Origin: Deltaproteobacteria bacterium
GTDB taxonomy: Bacteria > Desulfobacterota > Desulfuromonadia > Desulfuromonadales > BM103
Length of the DNA stretch: 64,000 nt
NCBI GenBank assembly: GCA_024279915.1
Contig: JAJRRB010000064.1
Span: 1 to 64,000, forward strand
Reading direction: 5' to 3'
The number at the start of each line of letters is the position of its first letter. Position 1 is the first letter of the stretch. Under the pieces are notes generated by a model. The model made no database searches. It saw only the letters and a program-made list of their open reading frames with translations, and was not told the DNA's origin. The translations under genes and the position numbers were made by a program. Shown here piece after piece: positions 5,594-50,887 of the stretch.

Positions 5594-6271
5594 CTAATTG
5601 ATCTCCTGCCAGAGTTGTTCAATATCACGAATCAGGCCAAGGTGCTCGGCATTGTTAATCGAATAATAGAGTGAACCAAAGGTGTTCTTCTCATCTTCGA
5701 GTTTCAAGTAAACCAGAGCGGCATGGTAAAGGAGGAGGGCTTTCTGATCGGCGCTTCTGACCCGTTCCAATGCTGTATTCAGCAGTTTGATTGACTCATC
5801 ATACTGACTGGCCTGGTAATAAAGAAATGCTGCTGTGTCGTATCTTTCGATACTCGATCCAGGCATCCGTTGCAGAAGTTCTTCGGCTTCGTCCAACTTA
5901 TAAAGGTGGTTCGCGTCGATCAACGCCAGACGATGCATGATCTCGAGATGGTCCGGATCATCCTCGGAAACCATCTTCATGGCTTGTTCGTAGGTGCGGT
6001 AGGCGTCCTTGTCTTCGTCGATCCGTTCGAGGACTTCTGCACGACGGAGGTAGTAGCGTCCTACGGTAGGATCTTTAGTGATAGCAATTGCATATTGATG
6101 TGCTGCTGCGGCATAAGCCTTGCTCTGAATCAGCTGTTCCGCCCGGTTGACCACTTCCCCGACCGGGCGCGGATCGTCTTTCCCCGGTGTTCCAGCGCAA
6201 CCGCCAAGCAACAGGACAAGTGTACAGCCGAGGAGAATAGTCGCTTTGGTTATATGTAAAATACGGGGCAC
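5594..6271 (-). CDS. TPR-repeat lipoprotein
   Basis: Secreted lipoprotein: a type II signal peptide with lipobox LLGGC (Cys about residue 25), followed by about 200 residues of helix-turn-helix pairs resembling tetratricopeptide repeats (for example QLIQSKAYAAAAHQYAIAITKDP and RAEVLERIDEDKDAYRTYEQAM). TPR lipoproteins usually scaffold envelope protein complexes. No closer family is recognised. It is the last gene of a minus-strand run behind ppiD and purC, 29 bp after purC. The role of the product is unknown. Confidence 0.75.
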   Translation of the reverse strand: MPRILHITKATILLGCTLVLLLGGCAGTPGKDDPRPVGEVVNRAEQLIQSKAYAAAAHQYAIAITKDPTVGRYYLRRAEVLERIDEDKDAYRTYEQAMKMVSEDDPDHLEIMHRLALIDANHLYKLDEAEELLQRMPGSSIERYDTAAFLYYQASQYDESIKLLNTALERVRSADQKALLLYHAALVYLKLEDEKNTFGSLYYSINNAEHLGLIRDIEQLWQEIN

Positions 6272-39628: not shown

Positions 39629-41041
39629 ATGAGCAAAAAGCTGCTGTTGGCCGACGACAGTATCACGATCCAAAAGGTTATTCAGATTACCTTTGCGCAT
39701 GAAGACTATGAACTGACTATTACAGATAATGGTGATGCAGCTCTGGTCAAGGCTCAGGAAATCAAACCTGATCTGGTTATGACTGATATTTATATGCCGG
39801 GTAAAAACGGCTACGAGTTGACCAGTGCCATCAAACAGGACCCAGCTCTCCAGCATGTGCCTGTGTTGCTGTTGGCTGGTTCATTCGAACCCTTTGATGA
39901 AAACAAGGCCCGGAGCTGCAAGGCTGATGCCTGGATAGAAAAACCTTTCGAGTCACAGAGCCTGATTGACAAGGTTGCCGAACTGCTCAGTGCAGCACAA
40001 GCTGCACCAGCCATCGTTCCTGAACCAGTACCCGTTGCTGAACCGGAACCCGTTGTTGAACCCGCTCCTGTTGCTGAACCGGAACCGCTTGCCGCTGTTG
40101 AGGAAACACCACTGGCGGCTTTTGATGAACCTGTCAGTCCCGAACCAGAGATGACAGCAGCATCAGATGATCCTTTTGGTGATATCTCCTTTGAAGAAGA
40201 GGCGCCAGTTGTTAAGCCTGAGCCAGTTACAGCAGCAGATGACTGGAGTGACGTTGTCTCAGAACCAACCGTTACAGAGCCAGCAGCCGTGGTGCCAGCG
40301 GTTGAAGAACCTGTGGTGGAAGATGCTTTTTCTGCTGATCACGTTGAAGATATTGCTGAAGATTTCAGCTTTGCCGAAGTGGAACCAGTCGCTGCTGTGA
40401 TCTCTCCACCTGTTGAGGAAACCCCGGTTGCGGATGTTGATCTCGATGTTTTTGACATGGGTGATGACGAGATTATGCCACTTGGTGACGATGATATCCT
40501 GGGTGAAGAAGACCTTGAGCCGGCCATGCCGGAACAGACTCTTGCCGCCTGGTCGCGTGATGATTCGGGTGATGATGTTTTTGCAGAAACGCTTAGCGAG
40601 GCACCTTCTGTTGAGGATGAGGATGTCTTCGCTGTTAGTGAGCCTGCGGTAGAAATATCTTCTGCTTTTGAAGAACCCGTTGCTACGGTGCCGGTAGTGG
40701 AACCTGTTGTGGAACCTGTTGTGGAACCTGTTGTGGAACCTGTTGTGGAACCTGTTGTGGAACCTGTTGTGGAACCTGCACGGGTGGATGAGACTACCGT
40801 CGCTATTGAGGCGCCAGAAGCTGAGCCTGTTGCTGTCGCCGCTGTGATGGCGGATGTTGAAGCAAAAGCTTCTGCCTTAAGTGAAGAAGATCTTGAACAG
40901 ATCATTGAGAAAGTTGTGACGAAGGTGGTGGAAAAACTGGCTGGATCGATTCTCGAGCGAGTCGCTTGGGATGTTGTCCCTGATCTCGCTGAAAATCTGA
41001 TTCGCGAAGAGATCCGCAAGATTAAGGATGCTGCTGCTTGA
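39629..41041 (+). CDS. Response regulator with acidic Pro/Val/Glu linker and helical C-terminus
   Basis: Residues 1-120 form a canonical receiver (LLLADDSITIQKVIQITF, phospho-Asp in PDLVMTDIYMPGKNG, Lys in DAWIEKPFE). Residues about 125-410 are a low-complexity acidic linker rich in Glu, Pro, Val and Ala, including seven tandem VVEP units. The last about 55 residues are predicted amphipathic helices (EEDLEQIIEKVVTKVVEKL, ILERVAWDVVPDLAENLI). Such a layout suggests a scaffold or polar-localisation protein rather than a DNA-binding regulator. The ribosome site is AAGGAG. Last gene of the CheW-CheW-REC operon, with a terminator 30 bp behind it. Confidence 0.82.
   Translation: MSKKLLLADDSITIQKVIQITFAHEDYELTITDNGDAALVKAQEIKPDLVMTDIYMPGKNGYELTSAIKQDPALQHVPVLLLAGSFEPFDENKARSCKADAWIEKPFESQSLIDKVAELLSAAQAAPAIVPEPVPVAEPEPVVEPAPVAEPEPLAAVEETPLAAFDEPVSPEPEMTAASDDPFGDISFEEEAPVVKPEPVTAADDWSDVVSEPTVTEPAAVVPAVEEPVVEDAFSADHVEDIAEDFSFAEVEPVAAVISPPVEETPVADVDLDVFDMGDDEIMPLGDDDILGEEDLEPAMPEQTLAAWSRDDSGDDVFAETLSEAPSVEDEDVFAVSEPAVEISSAFEEPVATVPVVEPVVEPVVEPVVEPVVEPVVEPVVEPARVDETTVAIEAPEAEPVAVAAVMADVEAKASALSEEDLEQIIEKVVTKVVEKLAGSILERVAWDVVPDLAENLIREEIRKIKDAAA
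40694..40777 (+). repeat. In-frame 12-bp tandem repeat (VVEP x7)
   Basis: Six perfect copies of GTTGTGGAACCT preceded by one copy with a single change (GTAGTGGAACCT). The unit is a multiple of three, so copy-number change would alter linker length without a frameshift. Confidence 0.95.
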
Positions 41042-43898: not shown

Positions 43899-46244
43899 CT
43901 AATACCCCAAGTCAACTTCTTCAAGAACCTCTGCCAGGTGCTTGCGAATCTGAACGCTGCTATCCAGTTTGCGGATTTCTGTATAACGTCGATGGGCGAT
44001 CTCCATGGAGACACCTTTCAGGAATGCTTTGGTGCGTGGGATGAAGGGGGCTGGCATGGAGAATTCGCGTAACCCCATGCCGATTAGCAGCAGCAGGGTC
44101 AGCGGATCGGTCGCCATCTCACCACAGAGGCTGACACCTTTGCCCATCGATAGTGCCGTATCCGTGACTTCGTACAGTACCTGTAAGACCGCAGGATGTA
44201 GCGGGTCGTAATACTTGCTGACCAGTGGGTTGTTACGGTCGGCGGCCAACAGATATTTAACCAGGTCGTTAGTGCCAAGGGCGAAGAAGTCAACGACATT
44301 GGCCAGTTGTGGCACCAGACGGACAGCTGCTGGGACCTCGATCATGACGCCGACAGGGATGTTGTCCGGGCAGTCAAGATTCTCTTTACTCAGATTCTCC
44401 CGGGCTTCTTTGACGACCTCCAGGCAGTCGCGTATCTCATCCATACTGGAGATCATTGGAAAGAGTAGTTTCACCGGTCCGTGAATGCCTGCCATGAGGA
44501 TTGCTTCGATCTGGGTTCGGAATATATCCCGATTGTCGAGCGACACTCTCACAGAGCGCCAGCCCATGAATGGGTTGTCTTCCTTGGGTGGACTGAAGTA
44601 AGGCAAAGCCTTGTCACCGCCGATGTCCAGAGTGCGAATGGTTACTGGTTGTCCTTCAAATTCCTTGACCACCCGACTGTAGAGCTCGTACTGGTCATTG
44701 CGGCTGGGGAAATCACCGCGAGCCATGTAAGGGAACTCGGTCCGATAAAGTCCAACACCTTCGGCGCCAAATCGCTTGGCAACGTTAATATCACTGATCA
44801 AGCCGATGTTGGCGCGCAATATGATGCGTACACCATCAGATGTCATAGCCGGTTGATCTCGGTATTCATCAAGACGGCATAATTCACGGGTCTGGTCCAG
44901 TTGCAGGCGTTGGTACTCTTCTTTGATTGTCTCTACCGGGTTGATGTAGATGCGCCCGGTGTTTGCATCAATGATCAGGCTATCTTCCGGAGCAATGTGT
45001 TTGAGAGCACCACGTACAGCAACAATCGCGGGAATCCCCATTGATTTCGCCATGATGACAGCATGAGAATTCTGCTCTCCCACTTCAGTAATGATGCCCA
45101 GAATCTGTTCGTTATCCAGTGTCGCCATATCTGACGGCAGAATTTGTCTGGCAACCAGGATACCTGGATGCTTCAGATGTAAAGTCTGTTCTGGCGCATC
45201 GTCAACCAGGTTGGCGAGGATGCGTCGTCCAATATCTTCCATGTCGGAGGCGCGTTCACGAAGATAGGGGTCATCCATCTTACGGAATACTTCAATGTAA
45301 TCAGCGACGGTTTTTTCCAGTGCGTAAGCAGCACTGTGCCCGTTTGATATCTCTTTCTGGAGTTTCTTGATAAAACTGCGATCGTCAAGAATCATCAGGT
45401 GGGTATGAAAAATCGCTGCATCGTTCTCACTGAGCCTTTCTGCGACTCGTTTCTCAAGGAAGATCGTTTGGATGCAGGTTTTTTCCAGAGCACTTTCAAG
45501 GTTTTTCAATTCTACTTCGGTGTCAACTTCTTCTTCGTGGAGAATATCGGCAAACCCGAGTCGTTCTTCGAGGATTGCAGCCGGTCCGATGGCAACTCCG
45601 GGGTAGGCAACTTGACCTGAGAGGACATCCTGCTGAGAGGTTTCGGCTGCTTTTTCAGCCTCTGTCAAGGTCTGCTGTGCCTGGACAAGAGCTTCGTTGA
45701 CGCGTTGGCTCTCCTCCTGGTGCAAGCGAATAGAGTCAAGAAGACGGGCGTTTACGACAATAGAGGTGATTTGAAAAGCAATTGTCGACAGGGCGCTGAT
45801 CTCTTCTTTGTTGAATTGTCGGGGAGCCTTGGTTTGCAGGACAATGACGCCAAGAGGATTATTACGATCAAAGAGAGGTATGCCCAGGAATGAATGAAAG
45901 CGTTCTTCGCCGGTCTCCTTGAAGTAACGATAGCTGGGGTGCTCCTGTGGCTCTTCAATAGCTATAGCATGACGCTTCAGAGCTGCCATGCCAGTCAGGC
46001 CTTCACCGATGCGCAAGGTGACTTTGCCTACAGCTTTACGGGAAAGCCCCTTGGAGGCTTGCAGCCGTAAGGTTTCGTTGTCCGATTCAAGGAGGTAGAT
46101 AGAGCAGACATCCGTGTGCATGCGACGTGCAACAAGGTTGACAATGTTACTCAGGGTCTCTTTGAGGTCGTGTGACTGGAGAATCAGCGCACTGATATCT
46201 TCAAGGGTGGTAACGCCTATTTTGGAGTTAAGTTTGCGTGGCAT
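43899..46244 (-). CDS. ptsP: PTS-Ntr enzyme I (phosphoenolpyruvate-protein phosphotransferase with GAF domain)
   Basis: First kinase of the nitrogen-type phosphotransferase system. An N-terminal GAF domain (about 1-170; LVARRMHTDVCSIYLLE) precedes the PEP-utilising N-terminal region, with the phosphohistidine at His394 (QNSHAVIMAKSMGIP). The TIM-barrel PEP-binding domain carries GVGLYRTEFPYM, GGDKALPYF, GWRSVRVSLD and the C-terminal LFALGTNDLVKY/CGEMATDP motifs. Length 781 is typical of PtsP. No ptsO or ptsN gene is adjacent. The sigma-54-type small transcript in the upstream gap terminates about 130 bp before this start, so ptsP must use another promoter or readthrough. Confidence 0.95.
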   Translation of the reverse strand: MPRKLNSKIGVTTLEDISALILQSHDLKETLSNIVNLVARRMHTDVCSIYLLESDNETLRLQASKGLSRKAVGKVTLRIGEGLTGMAALKRHAIAIEEPQEHPSYRYFKETGEERFHSFLGIPLFDRNNPLGVIVLQTKAPRQFNKEEISALSTIAFQITSIVVNARLLDSIRLHQEESQRVNEALVQAQQTLTEAEKAAETSQQDVLSGQVAYPGVAIGPAAILEERLGFADILHEEEVDTEVELKNLESALEKTCIQTIFLEKRVAERLSENDAAIFHTHLMILDDRSFIKKLQKEISNGHSAAYALEKTVADYIEVFRKMDDPYLRERASDMEDIGRRILANLVDDAPEQTLHLKHPGILVARQILPSDMATLDNEQILGIITEVGEQNSHAVIMAKSMGIPAIVAVRGALKHIAPEDSLIIDANTGRIYINPVETIKEEYQRLQLDQTRELCRLDEYRDQPAMTSDGVRIILRANIGLISDINVAKRFGAEGVGLYRTEFPYMARGDFPSRNDQYELYSRVVKEFEGQPVTIRTLDIGGDKALPYFSPPKEDNPFMGWRSVRVSLDNRDIFRTQIEAILMAGIHGPVKLLFPMISSMDEIRDCLEVVKEARENLSKENLDCPDNIPVGVMIEVPAAVRLVPQLANVVDFFALGTNDLVKYLLAADRNNPLVSKYYDPLHPAVLQVLYEVTDTALSMGKGVSLCGEMATDPLTLLLLIGMGLREFSMPAPFIPRTKAFLKGVSMEIAHRRYTEIRKLDSSVQIRKHLAEVLEEVDLGY

Positions 46245-46376: not shown

Positions 46377-46416
46377 AAAAAAACGCCGCCCGGGGGAGAG
46401 AGATCCCGTGGCGGCG
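46377..46416 (-). terminator. Strong intrinsic terminator of the predicted sRNA
   Basis: On the minus strand CGCCGCCACGGG and CCCGGGCGGCG form a GC-rich stem with a mismatch or bulge and a pyrimidine-rich loop, followed by seven T. Confidence 0.88.
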
Positions 46417-46471
46417 CAAACAAGGGAACAGGAATCCTTAGAGTGGAAGCTGCTATCCCTAGACAGTTGTC
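46377..46471 (-). ncRNA. Predicted sigma-54-dependent small RNA (about 95 nt)
   Basis: Inferred transcript between a near-perfect -24/-12 promoter (start about 46471) and a strong intrinsic terminator. It has no plausible ORF (only ATG ACA ACT GTC TAG). The 3' hairpin loop reads AUCUCUCUCC, complementary to Shine-Dalgarno-type GGAGAGA sequences, a common feature of regulatory RNAs. It lies in the 436-bp gap between the hydrogenase-like activator gene and ptsP, with two palindromic sites upstream at about -120 and -190. Alternatives are a leader for ptsP with attenuation, or a 3' UTR of the activator mRNA. Neither would require the promoter match. Confidence 0.5.
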
Positions 46472-46481
46472 ATGTTGTATG

Positions 46482-46497
46482 AGCAACTACTGTGCCA
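46482..46497 (-). promoter_or_regulatory. Sigma-54 (-24/-12) promoter
   Basis: Minus strand reads TGGCACAGTAGTTGCT against the consensus TGGCACR-N4-TTGCW: both GG and GC elements are present at the correct spacing. The predicted start is near 46471. It is upstream only of the terminator-bounded 95-nt stretch. Confidence 0.72.
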
Positions 46498-46583: not shown

Positions 46584-46601
46584 TGTGTCATTTGTGGCAC
46601 A
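46584..46601. promoter_or_regulatory. Palindromic operator / UAS 1
   Basis: TGTGTCA-TTTG-TGGCACA, one mismatch from a perfect palindrome. Its centre is about 120 bp upstream of the predicted sigma-54 start, where enhancer-binding proteins usually bind. Confidence 0.6.
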
Positions 46602-46650
46602 CCGTGCTGGGGCGAATGGGGAAAACGCTGTAATATAGGGCGAAATGACT

Positions 46651-46668
46651 GTGCCACGATTGGCACAG
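46651..46668. promoter_or_regulatory. Palindromic operator / UAS 2
   Basis: TGTGCCA-CGAT-TGGCACA, a perfect palindrome (eight paired bases per arm if flanking C/G are counted) about 190 bp upstream of the predicted sigma-54 start and 12 bp past the activator stop codon. Same motif as 46584-46601 and 49023-49040. Confidence 0.68.
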
Positions 46669-46680
46669 TCAGGTGACAAT

Positions 46681-48990
46681 TTATGACGGTTTTTGTCTTA
46701 GAAAGCCTTCATCTTGTGAAGACGTTTTGAAGCTGGTGCCGTCAAGGCCATTGCGATTCAACATTCGGTAAAAGGTGCGTCTCGGTATCTCGGCCAGGCG
46801 TGCAGCCGCAGATACGTTACCTTCTGCTTCACGCAGATACCGTATCAAGAGGTTCTTCTCGACCTGGTTGACGTGTTTCTGACGTTGGCTGCGTAAACTG
46901 TCATGGTTCGATTCCTCTGGGGCCTGAAGGATAAGTTCGCCAATAATAACAGGCAGGTTTTCAAGCCTGATGATTTCGTCGTGAGTCAGCACCGCGGCAC
47001 GTTCGATAATATTTTGCAATTCACGAATGTTCCCGGGCCAATGGTACTGACGCATGGCATGAACTGCGCGATCTTCTATGCCCGTCAGGGGTTTGTTGAC
47101 GCGTGTGCTGGCCTTGGCTATAAAGATCTGCAGTAGTTCGTCCAGTGAATCAAGCCTGTTACGCAGTGGTGGCATGGTGATAGTGAAGACGTTCAGTCGA
47201 TAAAAAAGGTCTTCTCGAAACCACCCTTCTGTAACTCCTTCTTCGAGGTTCCTGTTGGTTGCTGCAATCAGGCGTACATCTACTTTGGTCGATGCGTTGC
47301 CGCCGACTGACCTGATCTCGCCGCTATCGAGAACACGTAGGAGCTCTGCCTGGAGCTTGGGAGTGATGTCGCCGATTTCATCGAGAAAGATTGTGCCACC
47401 GTCGGCGGCTTCGAAGAGCCCGCGCTTCTCGTTGATTGCACCTGTGAAGGCGCCTTTTTTGTGACCAAAGAGTTCACTTTCAAGTAGGCTGTCTGTCAAG
47501 GTTGTGCAGTTAACTGTGACCAGGGGCTTGTCGGACCGTTGACTCTGTGCATGTATGGCACGCGCAGTCAACTCCTTGCCAGTACCGCTTTCGCCACGAA
47601 TTAGGACCGTTGTTGGGGTTGGTCCGACCTGATGAATCAGTTTGATCACGTCCTTGGTGCGCTGGTCGTTACCAATAATAGATGTTTCGCCAAATTCCTG
47701 TTTCAGGGCATGTTGGGCAAGCTCGTATTTCTGAGTAAGCTTGATGTGCTCTTCTTCGAGACGTTTCAATGAGTAGGGCAGGCACATATTGTTTACTGCA
47801 AGCTCGCGGTACACGGCAACGGCGTGTTCACGGCAGGTTGTGTAGCCACAGGCACCACAGTTAAGCTCATCCTTGGTTTTGTATTTATCAGTTGCCTGGA
47901 GTATTTGCCTTAACCGCTCACTGCTTGGTGTTTTAGGTCGTTTGTGCTTATTGGAAAATGTATTGGAAAAGTCAGGTAGTGGTAAATCGGCAAGGTAAGT
48001 CGACTTGGTTCGATAGTAAAGATGATGGTCCAGGTGTTGTTCGATAATCAGATTGCGCTTTGAGAAGGTGGTTAGACGGTTGTTCTTGCCTGGTCCCCCG
48101 ATGCAGCCGCCGTTGCAGAAACGTATATCAACCACTTTCGGCGAAATTCGGCCAGCGGCGAGATCCTTGATGATCTCCATGGCGTTTTCTTCACCTTCAG
48201 TCTCCAGATAATCCTGATTGATGATTTCGCTATCGATATCAAAAGCTTTGAATGGACCTCCACTGATGGCAAAAAGACGGCCACGTTGCGGCGAGATGCC
48301 GTCAAAGGCGGTTTCGCCAAGTCTTTTCAGATCGAGATTGTGGCCCTTGAACATTTGACTGAGTTCCTGATAGGAGACAACACAGTCTATAGCTCCCTCG
48401 GTTTGCTCAGCGGTGATTTCGAACTTTCCCGCAATGCAGGAGCTGATGTAGACAATCGGGGTGTCGACTGTGGTTCTGCTTTTGATAAAGCGGCCGATGG
48501 CAACCATCGGTGAGACAATACCGATAAGATTCTTGAGTAGTTGCGGATAATGCTTTTCGATCAGGTCGACAATTGTTGGGCAATGCGTTGTTATGAGTGG
48601 GTAGCTTTGGTCCTTTTCCAGACTTTCGCGGTAACTGTCCCGTAGCAGGTCGACACCTGCAGCCCCTTCATGGACTTCGGCAAAGCCGAGTCTTCGCAGG
48701 CCAGTGACCAGTTGTCCAGAACGAAGATCGTGGAAAAATGCGGGATGTGAACAGCCGAGAATAGCTATCGGCGTGTTGTCGGCAGCCAGAAGTCGGCGGC
48801 ATTCACCGACATGGTCGGCAATTACTTTGGCTTTTTGTGAGCAGATTTTGACGCAATTGCCACAACCGATGCAGCGATCATCAATAACTTCCGCATAGTT
48901 GCTATGGACACGAATCGCCTTGACTGGGCAATTACGAACACAGGCATAGCATTTTCGACAGTTTTCCTTAATTGTAATGATTGAGCCCAT
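46681..48990 (-). CDS. Sigma-54 activator with ferredoxin and [FeFe]-hydrogenase-like sensor domains
   Basis: Enhancer-binding protein of about 769 residues. N-terminal 2x[4Fe-4S] ferredoxin (C11, C14, C17, C21; C40, C43, C46, C50) is followed by an [FeFe]-hydrogenase large-subunit-like domain (about 70-330). The H-cluster motifs are TTHCP (134-138), SSCIAGKFE (Cys185) and FCNGGCIGGPG (Cys292, Cys296). The four cluster cysteines are kept, but the proton-relay cysteine of TSCCP is His136. A CGACGYTTC Fe-S motif (378-386), AAA+ domain (GESGTGKE, GAFTGA, FLDEIGD) and Fis-type helix-turn-helix (NVSAAARLAEIPRRTFYRML) follow. ATG 48990 is chosen for AAGGAG at 5 nt. Probably a redox or H2 sensor controlling sigma-54 transcription. 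Confidence 0.88.
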   Translation of the reverse strand: MGSIITIKENCRKCYACVRNCPVKAIRVHSNYAEVIDDRCIGCGNCVKICSQKAKVIADHVGECRRLLAADNTPIAILGCSHPAFFHDLRSGQLVTGLRRLGFAEVHEGAAGVDLLRDSYRESLEKDQSYPLITTHCPTIVDLIEKHYPQLLKNLIGIVSPMVAIGRFIKSRTTVDTPIVYISSCIAGKFEITAEQTEGAIDCVVSYQELSQMFKGHNLDLKRLGETAFDGISPQRGRLFAISGGPFKAFDIDSEIINQDYLETEGEENAMEIIKDLAAGRISPKVVDIRFCNGGCIGGPGKNNRLTTFSKRNLIIEQHLDHHLYYRTKSTYLADLPLPDFSNTFSNKHKRPKTPSSERLRQILQATDKYKTKDELNCGACGYTTCREHAVAVYRELAVNNMCLPYSLKRLEEEHIKLTQKYELAQHALKQEFGETSIIGNDQRTKDVIKLIHQVGPTPTTVLIRGESGTGKELTARAIHAQSQRSDKPLVTVNCTTLTDSLLESELFGHKKGAFTGAINEKRGLFEAADGGTIFLDEIGDITPKLQAELLRVLDSGEIRSVGGNASTKVDVRLIAATNRNLEEGVTEGWFREDLFYRLNVFTITMPPLRNRLDSLDELLQIFIAKASTRVNKPLTGIEDRAVHAMRQYHWPGNIRELQNIIERAAVLTHDEIIRLENLPVIIGELILQAPEESNHDSLRSQRQKHVNQVEKNLLIRYLREAEGNVSAAARLAEIPRRTFYRMLNRNGLDGTSFKTSSQDEGFLRQKPS

Positions 48991-49020: not shown

Positions 49021-49050
49021 ATTGTGCCACTCTTGGCACGGCTGTGTCAA
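49021..49050 (-). promoter_or_regulatory. Probable sigma-70 promoter of the activator gene
   Basis: On the minus strand a perfect TTGACA is followed after 18 bp by CACAAT (4/6 of the -10 consensus). The predicted start near 49014 gives a 24-nt leader containing the AAGGAG ribosome site. The palindromic operator fills the spacer and touches the -10, which fits repression by the gene's own product. Confidence 0.5.
49023..49040. promoter_or_regulatory. Palindromic operator 3, in the activator's own promoter
   Basis: TGTGCCA-CTCT-TGGCACG, same motif as the two sites behind the gene with one end base different. It lies between the -35 and -10, so binding should block transcription. Confidence 0.62.
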
Positions 49051-49070
49051 TGGAGGAAGGACGGCTAGAA

Positions 49071-49100
49071 GGCTGTAAGGTTGGAGGCTGGAGGCTGTAA
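49071..49100. repeat. GGCTGTAAGG-type short repeat
   Basis: GGCTGTAAGG, GGAGGCT, GGAGGCTGTAA in tandem. Related words occur at 50204-50249, about 50850 and 62940, always between genes. Confidence 0.45.
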
Positions 49101-49196
49101 AATTTGAAGATTTTACTTTAGAGCATTATCGCTTTACAATTTTTTCATGCTATCTTGAGCGTTCAATAGATCAACTGACTTGGAGAGATGACGACA

Positions 49197-50216
49197 ATGA
49201 GAATGATAGATTTGCGTAGCGACACAGTCACCAAACCTGGCGATGCCATGCGTCAGGCCATGCTTGAGGCCGAAGTGGGCGATGATGTCTACGGTGAGGA
49301 TCCGACCGTTAATCGCTTGCAGAAACTGGCCGCTGAGATGGCTGACAAAGAGGCTGCTTTATTCGTGCCCACCGGTACACAGGGCAACCTGTTAGCAATA
49401 TTGGCACATTGCCAGCGAGGTGAAGAGTATATTGCCGGGCAGCAGGCGCATTGTTATCGCTATGAAGCTGGTGGAGCGGCAGTCTTTGGTGGTGTGCAGC
49501 CGCAGCCAATCGAGTTTGAGGACGACGGCAGGCTTGATCTGACAAAAGTCGCAGCAATGATCAAGCCAGACGACGATCATTTTGCGATCACTCGTTTGAT
49601 CTGTCTTGAAAATACCCAGGGCGGCAAGGCCTTACCTCTCGATTATCAGAGTGACGCGGCGGCTTTTGCTCGCGAGTACGGACTGAGGCTACATCTTGAC
49701 GGCGCCCGTGTATTCAATGCTGCCGTTAGGCAACAGGTTCAGCTCTCCGAAATTACCCGCTATTATGACTCTATCTCTTTCTGCCTCTCCAAAGGGCTTG
49801 GTAGCCCGGTCGGTTCAATCCTGGTTGGTTCTCGCGAGTTTATAGAGCGGGCGCATCGCTGGCGCAAAATGGCTGGTGGCGGTATGCGGCAGGTCGGTAT
49901 TCTGGCGGCGGCGGGAATCTATGCTCTAAAGCACAACGTTGTGCGCTTGGCTGAAGATCATCAGAATGCCAGGCGGCTTGCAAAAGGCTTGTGCAACATA
50001 GAGGGGCTGGATGTTGAGCTGGACAAGGTTGATACCAATATGGTCTTTGTCTCCATGGCTCTGGAGAAACAACCTCAACTCGTCAACTCTCTCAAAGAGC
50101 AAGGCATCCTGATTGGCGGCTATGGTCAGTTAAGGTTGGTCACTCATCATGATATCGTGGCTGACGATGTACCCGTCGTTGTCGAGGCTTTTGAAAAGGC
50201 TGTAGCAGGGCTGTAA
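49197..50216 (+). CDS. ltaE: Low-specificity L-threonine aldolase
   Basis: PLP enzyme (fold type I) cleaving threonine or allo-threonine to glycine and acetaldehyde. N-terminal MIDLRSDTVTKPGDAMRQAM and GDDVYGEDPTVNRLQ are family signatures; the PLP lysine is in SISFCLSKGLGSPVGS, with HLDGARVFNAA supplying the aspartate. Length about 340 is usual. Candidate starts are 49188, 49197 and 49203; GGAGAG (49182-49187) is best spaced for 49197. The stop codon lies inside a palindrome shared with the convergent yajQ end. Confidence 0.93.
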   Translation: MRMIDLRSDTVTKPGDAMRQAMLEAEVGDDVYGEDPTVNRLQKLAAEMADKEAALFVPTGTQGNLLAILAHCQRGEEYIAGQQAHCYRYEAGGAAVFGGVQPQPIEFEDDGRLDLTKVAAMIKPDDDHFAITRLICLENTQGGKALPLDYQSDAAAFAREYGLRLHLDGARVFNAAVRQQVQLSEITRYYDSISFCLSKGLGSPVGSILVGSREFIERAHRWRKMAGGGMRQVGILAAAGIYALKHNVVRLAEDHQNARRLAKGLCNIEGLDVELDKVDTNMVFVSMALEKQPQLVNSLKEQGILIGGYGQLRLVTHHDIVADDVPVVVEAFEKAVAGL

Positions 50217-50249
50217 GGCTGTAAGGTTTAAACCCTATAGCCTTACAGC
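50210..50249. terminator. Inverted repeat between convergent ltaE and yajQ
   Basis: Perfect 11-nt arms GCTGTAAGGCT / AGCCTTACAGC with an 18-nt loop, the left arm containing the ltaE stop codon. No T-run, so terminator function is uncertain; built from the GGCTGTAAGG repeat word. Confidence 0.45.
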
Positions 50250-50271
50250 ATTCCAGCCTTATCGCTTTATT

Positions 50272-50754: not shown

Positions 50755-50887
50755 GATAATCTCTCCTATTATTTAAGTAGTGTCTTTCACTCTTTGGTGA
50801 AAGTCGCTTATCTTTTCAGTGTCATCGACATTATAAGATTAGGCTCTACAGCCTTCAAACCTTATTACGCCTAACAATACAGTGCCA

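Follow-up and report, generated by a model that had tools for sequence, protein, structure and literature searches.

The stretch of DNA analysed here (hereafter the window, 64,000 nucleotides from a member of the Desulfuromonadales) carries what I interpret as a self-limiting redox switch. In this scheme, an iron-sulfur bacterial enhancer-binding protein (EBP) would activate the gene for a small RNA while repressing its own, and the RNA would lower translation of TCA-cycle mRNAs. On balance I favour the complete scheme, with some reserve, as there are no expression, binding or repression data, and its individual steps are not equally secure.

All genes and promoter elements of the circuit lie on the minus strand. 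The window contains three exact copies of the palindrome TGTGYCA-N4-TGGCACR, found by pattern scan with 0 mismatches and not assigned to a strand, and all other matched places have 2 or 3 mismatches. The proximal copy, TGTGTCA-TTTG-TGGCACA (46584-46601), is centred ∼121 bp upstream of the predicted RNA start and 66 bp from the distal copy, TGTGCCA-CGAT-TGGCACA (46650-46667), whose centre is ∼187 bp upstream of that start (186-198 in the window's clade, loci L005-L024). These are the inferred enhancer sites 2 and 1, respectively, and the third copy, TGTGCCA-CTCT-TGGCACG (49023-49040), is the inferred autorepression operator. A sequence-only reading of this DNA had reported three copies with the same arms and the same 4-bp centre. 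All three sites exist, but the middle one had been placed one position too far, at 46651-46668; the arms are near-identical, but the centres TTTG, CGAT and CTCT match in length only, so the claim of a shared centre is wrong if sequence was meant. That reading was correct in placing two of the sites at enhancer distance from the sigma-54 start, and the third within the activator's own promoter.

Frequency alone does not set this motif apart. When up to 3 mismatches are allowed, the window yields 29 matches against 19.2 ± 5.5 in shuffled sequences, with 6 of 100 shuffles as high, which is not clearly above background. In the whole genome (3.83 Mb, 99 contigs), TGTGYCAN4TGRCACR with at most 1 mismatch is found at 4 places, three of which are the window sites; the fourth (G000:C90:39494) is within the 3′ end of an ORF that, by eye, resembles ETF alpha. 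The corresponding 8 strand-matches (4+4) are not unusual compared with the 6 (4 forward, 2 reverse) of a reversed-pattern control. The unusual feature is the clustering, with three of the genomic places inside 2.5 kb. It had been proposed that a motif equally common at random positions would refute the regulatory interpretation; in this genome the total is indeed like that of the control, but the concentration of 3 of the 4 places is not what that outcome describes. Since the genome total is little above the control, the case rests on clustering and conservation. No further palindrome target is apparent at one mismatch in the window's genome, to which the motif scan was confined.

Conservation was assessed with loci from 58 genomes and from named records, many of the 101 loci being the same genome present in two collections. 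The RNA pattern matched 93 of these, giving 68 distinct RNAs. Among the unmatched loci, L094 has no downstream DNA, L047 runs into ptsP, and L089, L092 and L096 carry a gene for a ribbon-helix-helix (RHH) protein; L067, L069 and L071 also escaped the pattern, yet their terminator is visible by eye. A few record labels (Chloroflexi for L083, Desulfobacteraceae for L074 and L104) are probably binning or naming matters. Allowing at most 2 mismatches in the 14 arm positions, within 250 bp before the sigma-54 box or the activator, at least one palindrome precedes the box in 65 of the 68 loci (0.15% of dinucleotide shuffles) and at least two do so in 50 (0 in shuffles), while 59 loci, of the 64 whose upstream DNA is long enough, have one before the activator (0.16% of shuffles). 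In related genomes the site centres are mostly 96-230 bp from the predicted RNA start. The window's clade has two sites, 64-67 bp apart; other clades often have three, with spacings of ∼31-34 and 76-81 bp and variants of these. In L017 a further palindrome, TGTGTCACTTGTGGCACG, lies downstream of the RNA, 731 bases past the end of the activator match, and is a possible extra site.

The predicted sigma-54 promoter, TGGCACAGTAGTTGCT (-24/-12 elements, TGGCAC-N5-TTGCT), was located by sequence match at 46482-46497, and of the first 43 loci examined, 42 have a similar box downstream of the activator. The promoter of the activator itself, TTGACA-N18-CACAAT (49021-49050), holds the third palindrome in its spacer, where the palindrome also covers the first four bases of the -10 hexamer. 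Across the loci with upstream DNA, a palindrome with at most 3 mismatches lies between a TTGANN and a CACNNN hexamer with a spacing of 17-18 bp in 58 of 64, and the -10 hexamer is CACAAT itself in 44 of 64. In three loci (L007, L009 and L037), no palindrome within 3 mismatches was found upstream of the activator. Two other features of the window are recorded here: a short repeat, dispersed near an aldolase-like gene as direct and inverted copies around GGCTGTAAGG (49063-49108, 50202-50262 and 50847-50868), and, by eye, a response-regulator-like ORF with a long VVEP-type repeat (39629-41041).

The distribution of the activator and of the RNA across the 58 genomes links the two. A match to the activator with at least 62% identity is present in 42 genomes (in G005 for residues 2-610 only), and a covariance model of the RNA returned one strong match in each of 47, seven of them with an additional weak match; it should be noted that most RNAs of the 42 activator genomes also built the model. 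Both elements occur in 42 genomes, the RNA alone in 5, and 11 are without RNA. Not one of the 58 has an activator of this identity without the RNA; G024, which has no RNA, possesses an activator only 42% identical. Five RNA-bearing genomes (of 47) have no activator at the RNA locus (G028, G031, G045, G051 and G056; loci L148-L152); there the RNA and ptsP are kept and an ABC-transporter ATPase-like frame replaces the activator. The palindromes are gone in three of these loci, with one 2-mismatch and one 4-mismatch copy left in the other two, so loss of the activator tends to be accompanied by loss of the sites. Four of the five retain a sigma-54 box, G031 being without a recognisable one.

These observations bear on the identity of the protein that binds the palindromes. 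A regulator other than the activator, such as a member of the CRP/FNR family, could be envisaged, as TGTG...CACA resembles the CRP half-site. However, the spacing of the palindrome differs from that of a CRP site, one would not expect 3 of the 4 best sites of a multi-target regulator to fall at one locus, and the sites are lost in 3 of the 5 loci without activator, which makes this explanation very unlikely. The activator, on the other hand, fits as the binder: the sites, their loss together with the gene, and the AAA+ and Fis-type HTH domains described below all agree with it, with binding, transcription and repression remaining inferences. The earlier proposal that a single protein, the activator, both activates the RNA and represses its own gene is thus supported by site conservation, by the promoter overlap and by the activator-less loci, in the absence of binding data. 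In mechanistic terms, the iron-sulfur EBP would bind TGTGYCA-N4-TGRCACR palindromes, as inferred from their conservation. From 46650-46667 and 46584-46601 it would activate E-sigma-54 at 46497-46482 and so produce the ∼95-nt RNA, which is deduced from the promoter, the enhancer spacing and the terminator, and from 49023-49040 it would block the sigma-70 promoter of its own gene, as suggested by the operator position. I hold these three steps (palindrome binding, RNA activation and autorepression) with high confidence.

The activator (46681-48990, 769 amino acids) combines a 2x[4Fe-4S] ferredoxin, an [FeFe]-hydrogenase-like domain, an FeS module, a sigma-54 AAA+ domain and a Fis-type HTH, matching the Pfam domains ferredoxin, Fe_hyd_lg_C, FeS (PF04060), sigma-54 AAA+ (PF00158, E 4.7e-69) and HTH_8 (PF02954, E 1.5e-7). 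I aligned 71 orthologues, four of 75 having been dropped as partial. The Walker A motif GESGTGKE is nearly invariant, and the GAFTGA loop is present in the window activator, its second position being A in 49 and S in 22 of the 71 proteins. As far as its sequence allows, the protein is an NtrC-type EBP; that it binds enhancers and activates E-sigma-54 is inferred from site conservation only.

The N-terminal modules are also highly conserved, with 16 presumed cluster cysteines and H136 invariant in all 71 proteins: eight cysteines are in the ferredoxin, four at hydrogenase H-cluster positions, and four in the FeS module. The H-cluster positions (C137, C185, C292 and C296) were identified by alignment to solved hydrogenases, the last motif aligning as a separate weak stretch. 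In [FeFe] hydrogenases, the cysteine of the TSCCP motif acts as the proton relay, and the corresponding position is a histidine in 71 of 71 activators. Above the cut-off, HydG was found in 0 of the 42 activator genomes and in 4 of the 58 overall, with weaker matches below the cut-off in most genomes. Because of this lack of HydG above cut-off, of the histidine at the proton-relay position and of the invariant cysteines, the protein is probably no hydrogenase, and uses a hydrogenase-like domain as the scaffold of an iron-sulfur or redox sensor. One could still argue for a genuine [FeFe] hydrogenase that senses H2 and possesses a complete H-cluster, as the H-cluster cysteines align at all four positions and never vary, and as HgtR, a Geobacter protein discussed below, is induced by H2 (PMC7894505). 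The invariant histidine and the HydG counts oppose this, and I give it little credence. With the protein viewed as an iron-sulfur sensor, the signal would be the iron-sulfur or low-potential redox state, plausibly a surplus of reductant; this is an inference that I put forward only tentatively.

The predicted sigma-54-dependent small RNA is ∼95 nt long (46377-46471), its start being inferred from the spacing to the -12 element. The segment 46370-46478 folds better than its shuffles (z-score -3.99), largely through the terminator. Its locus is the only covariance-model match in the window's genome (E 3e-15), and is a member of the model's own alignment. No ORF of at least 20 codons is found inside the window RNA, and 66 of the 68 RNAs contain no complete one; a search against Rfam 15 returned no family at gathering score. 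The window therefore presents the features of a sigma-54-dependent EBP-sRNA pair, namely a -24/-12 promoter, upstream sites, a terminator and no protein, with the transcript and its dependence on the activator being inferred. It does not present an HgtR-type output, as the sigma-54 slot is occupied by a terminated RNA of ∼95 nt and not by an RHH protein.

The intrinsic terminator hairpin (46377-46417) possesses a G+C stem and a T7 tail, and its loop, AUCUCUCUCC (46395-46404), is complementary to GGAGAGAG(A) and is the inferred base-pairing seed. The loop sequence CUCUCUCC is found in 63 of 68 RNAs, as is CTCTCTCC, and CTCTCC is in all 68. The stem covaries, with 55 cells changed on both sides against 14.4 ± 3.0 in shuffles and 0-5 in slid controls; counted as pairs, changes on both sides exceed those in shuffles only modestly (6 vs 4.1, with 30 of 500 as high). 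Such covariation is expected of any terminator; what calls for an explanation is the conserved loop. From this comparison, the RNA is a conserved family. Judging by titles and the start of abstracts among the matches listed, no paper describes this RNA or the palindrome, with subscription papers mostly outside reach; small RNAs of Geobacter soli are the subject of PMC6013743. In 15 of the 68 RNAs (Malonomonas type; L080-L083, L085, L087, L088, L090, L095, L097-L100, L103 and L116), the 5′ half contains an identical hairpin, GUUCCCGCCCGAAC, whose C-rich loop is a possible second seed, and a CCCCC-rich stretch is present in the 5′ half in L045, L068, L072-L074, L079 and L104.

The next gene downstream is ptsP (GAF and EI-Ntr domains, 43899-46244), which is probably a neighbour and not part of the circuit. 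As ptsP begins 132 bp past the terminator and has the same orientation, the transcript might be only a leader or attenuator of ptsP. The ptsP N-terminal motif follows the RNA in at least 42 of 67 loci (a lower bound, obtained with a narrow regular expression), but a different gene follows in some, such as a YebC-like ORF, by eye, in L071. The strong terminator with its T7 tail also speaks against a leader, which would moreover leave the conserved loop unexplained, and I regard this as the faintest of prospects. A different role, sequestration of CsrA through GGA motifs, is hinted at by the AGGGAU, AAGGAU and CGGGAU contexts in the window RNA; PMC11934962 describes CsrA as a global regulator in G. 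sulfurreducens, with CsrB-like RNAs only predicted there. There are, however, only about three GGA motifs, two of them in the most variable 5′ region, whereas it is the CU-rich loop that is conserved, and 15 of the 68 RNAs have the C-rich 5′ hairpin instead. CsrA sequestration is accordingly improbable; the conserved loop is the inferred base-pairing seed.

Candidate targets of this loop were sought by searching for GGAGAGAG 3-12 nt before ATG in eight genomes. The matches were examined at gene level for five of these (G000, G002, G007, G012 and G014), with G001, G006 and G010 left out; in the five, 88 stretches listed correspond to at least 57 reading frames of at least 40 aa, some inside other genes. 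Among the matches listed, GGAGAGAG is at the ribosome site of citrate synthase (gltA), malate dehydrogenase (mdh) and one multihaem cytochrome in 5 of 5 genomes, of monomeric isocitrate dehydrogenase (icd) in at least 3, and of class I fumarase in at least 2. As a background, 0 of 49 ORFs in the window have this 8-mer, and 2 of 49 the 7-mer. None of these 49 ORFs gives a predicted duplex with the loop as strong as those of the gltA, mdh, icd and cytochrome leaders; that with the fumarase leader is not exceptional, 5 of the 49 being as low.

A wider test of gltA, mdh, fumarase and icd covered 30 chosen genomes (20 with the RNA and 10 without, by covariance model), plus 11 more for gltA, and genomes with no match to a gene were left out of the counts (G027, G047 and G064 for gltA, for example). 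At gltA, 20 of 27 RNA-bearing genomes have the 8-mer, and 26 of 27 have at least the 7-mer GGAGAGA, compared with 0 of 3 RHH-type genomes, where only GGAGAG is present, and 4 of 8 other RNA-less genomes (Fisher p 0.0002, uncorrected for relatedness). Within family f17, G051, which has the RNA, has the 7-mer at gltA, and G037, which does not, lacks it. In the RNA-bearing genomes, mdh has the 8-mer in 9 of 17, the 7-mer in 6 and neither in 2 (G029 and G036); for fumarase, the 8-mer is found in 7 of 19, the 7-mer in 8 and a shorter match in 4, and for icd these numbers are 4 of 19, 14 and 1. In RNA-less genomes the seed is at mdh in 3 of 10. G048 and G057 have no RNA above ptsP, nor any by covariance model, but retain GGAGAGAG at gltA, mdh and icd; G021 (87% complete) has no RNA at the ptsP locus and keeps the seed at gltA and mdh, and G049 (95% complete, with neither a ptsP match nor the RNA) has it at gltA only.

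The persistence of the seed in those four genomes leaves room for a different reading, according to which the circuit stands but GGAGAGAG at TCA genes is merely a lineage habit of ribosome-site sequence, the real targets of the RNA being others. GGAGAGA is itself close to an ordinary Shine-Dalgarno sequence, icd mostly has the 7-mer only, which is also found at icd of the RNA-less G037, and two permutation tests gave no significant sign that loop and target coevolve (857 of 5000 as good with loops truncated for G015 and G033, and 469 of 5000 when repeated with fixed windows). A mere habit, in contrast, does not account for the near-absence of the seed from the window's ORFs, nor for the fact that, among the matches listed, the genes common to the five genomes are two TCA enzymes and a cytochrome; the gltA seed is also absent in all 3 RHH-type genomes and in G024, G037, G044 and G055. 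I regard the lineage habit as unlikely, although it cannot be dismissed. In the scheme that I prefer, the loop CUCUCUCC would pair with GGAGAGAG at the ribosome-binding sites of the gltA, mdh, icd, fumarase and c-type cytochrome mRNAs, and lower their translation, probably with Hfq, which is encoded in 53 of the 58 genomes and in 43 of 43 of high quality. The sequence match and its pattern across genomes are observed, while pairing and repression are inferred. TCA-cycle mRNAs are the likely targets, but whether such pairing lowers the translation of TCA and cytochrome mRNAs appears evenly balanced at present.

A variant of the locus was identified in L089, L092 and L096, from records that bear the titles Geobacter sp., Geobacter sp. 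OR-1 and Geobacteraceae. These loci keep palindromes, a sigma-54-like box and an activator orthologue of 56-58% identity, followed by a gene for an RHH-like protein of 59-60 aa (in L092 at 6035-6214, plus strand), with RHH family scores below curated cut-offs in all three. GSU3364 of G. sulfurreducens lies downstream of an EBP gene, and an RpoN promoter is predicted for it (PMC2725144); it is HgtR, an H2-induced repressor of gltA, atpG and nuoA (PMC7726332, PMC7894505, PMC8691401). HgtR was also induced by cobalt, which is linked to iron-sulfur cluster disturbance (PMC7726332), and was undetected in one proteome study (PMC7894505). The RHH protein of the Geobacter-type slot is possibly HgtR. 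Should the L092 protein be HgtR, a protein would have taken the place of the RNA in this slot, with its action directed at the same enzyme, and HgtR, if encoded at the same locus, would constitute a parallel output on citrate synthase. I therefore suggest, as a possibility that falls short of an even chance, that the slot behind the iron-sulfur sensor has swapped its output, from a TCA-silencing sRNA in most of the Desulfuromonadales genomes examined to an RHH repressor of gltA transcription (probably HgtR) in Geobacter, with activator, palindromes and promoter kept.

The Desulfuromonadales oxidise acetate and play an important part in the respiration of iron, sulfur and electrodes. If the scheme is true, they gain a defined switch from iron-sulfur or redox state to TCA-cycle enzymes, and a clean example in which a small RNA and a protein repressor substitute for one another while the sensor stays the same. 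It would also add an RNA family without match in Rfam release 15, and what a hydrogenase-like regulator does in the absence of hydrogenase maturation becomes directly testable. What the present analysis adds to the earlier inference is a conserved RNA family, a putative iron-sulfur sensor without hydrogenase maturation, likely TCA mRNA targets and the replacement of the output in the Geobacter type; binding, activation, repression, pairing and signal all remain inferred.

By analogy, the proposed system works like CbrB-CrcZ or GlrR-GlmY, yet its RNA is outside known Rfam families. In GlrR-GlmY and LuxO-Qrr, a dedicated sigma-54 activator likewise drives sRNA genes, but does so in response to a two-component phospho-signal, as opposed to the iron-sulfur modules of the window activator, and the RNAs are unrelated. 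CbrB-CrcZ is RpoN-dependent, with the EBP gene adjacent to the sRNA gene. In Pseudomonas it similarly places an EBP-controlled sRNA in carbon metabolism, but with a different sensor, and CrcZ is reported to regulate Hfq, whereas the window RNA is inferred to act through a single base-pairing loop. C-rich loops suited to Shine-Dalgarno pairing are known in the ar7 and ar14 sRNAs, and are also reported for sX13. The window RNA is not a member of the sX13, ar7 or ar14 families, scoring 17.7, 16.8 and 16.8 bits against gathering scores of 50, 60 and 58.8. The sibling sRNAs of Neisseria and other TCA-directed sRNAs are also reported to place central metabolism under sRNA control; they depend on other regulators, and the window RNA is unrelated to them as far as Rfam shows. 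Finally, HgtR (GSU3364) resembles the window system in its upstream EBP gene, its predicted RpoN promoter and its repression of citrate synthase, but is a protein repressor where the window encodes an RNA.
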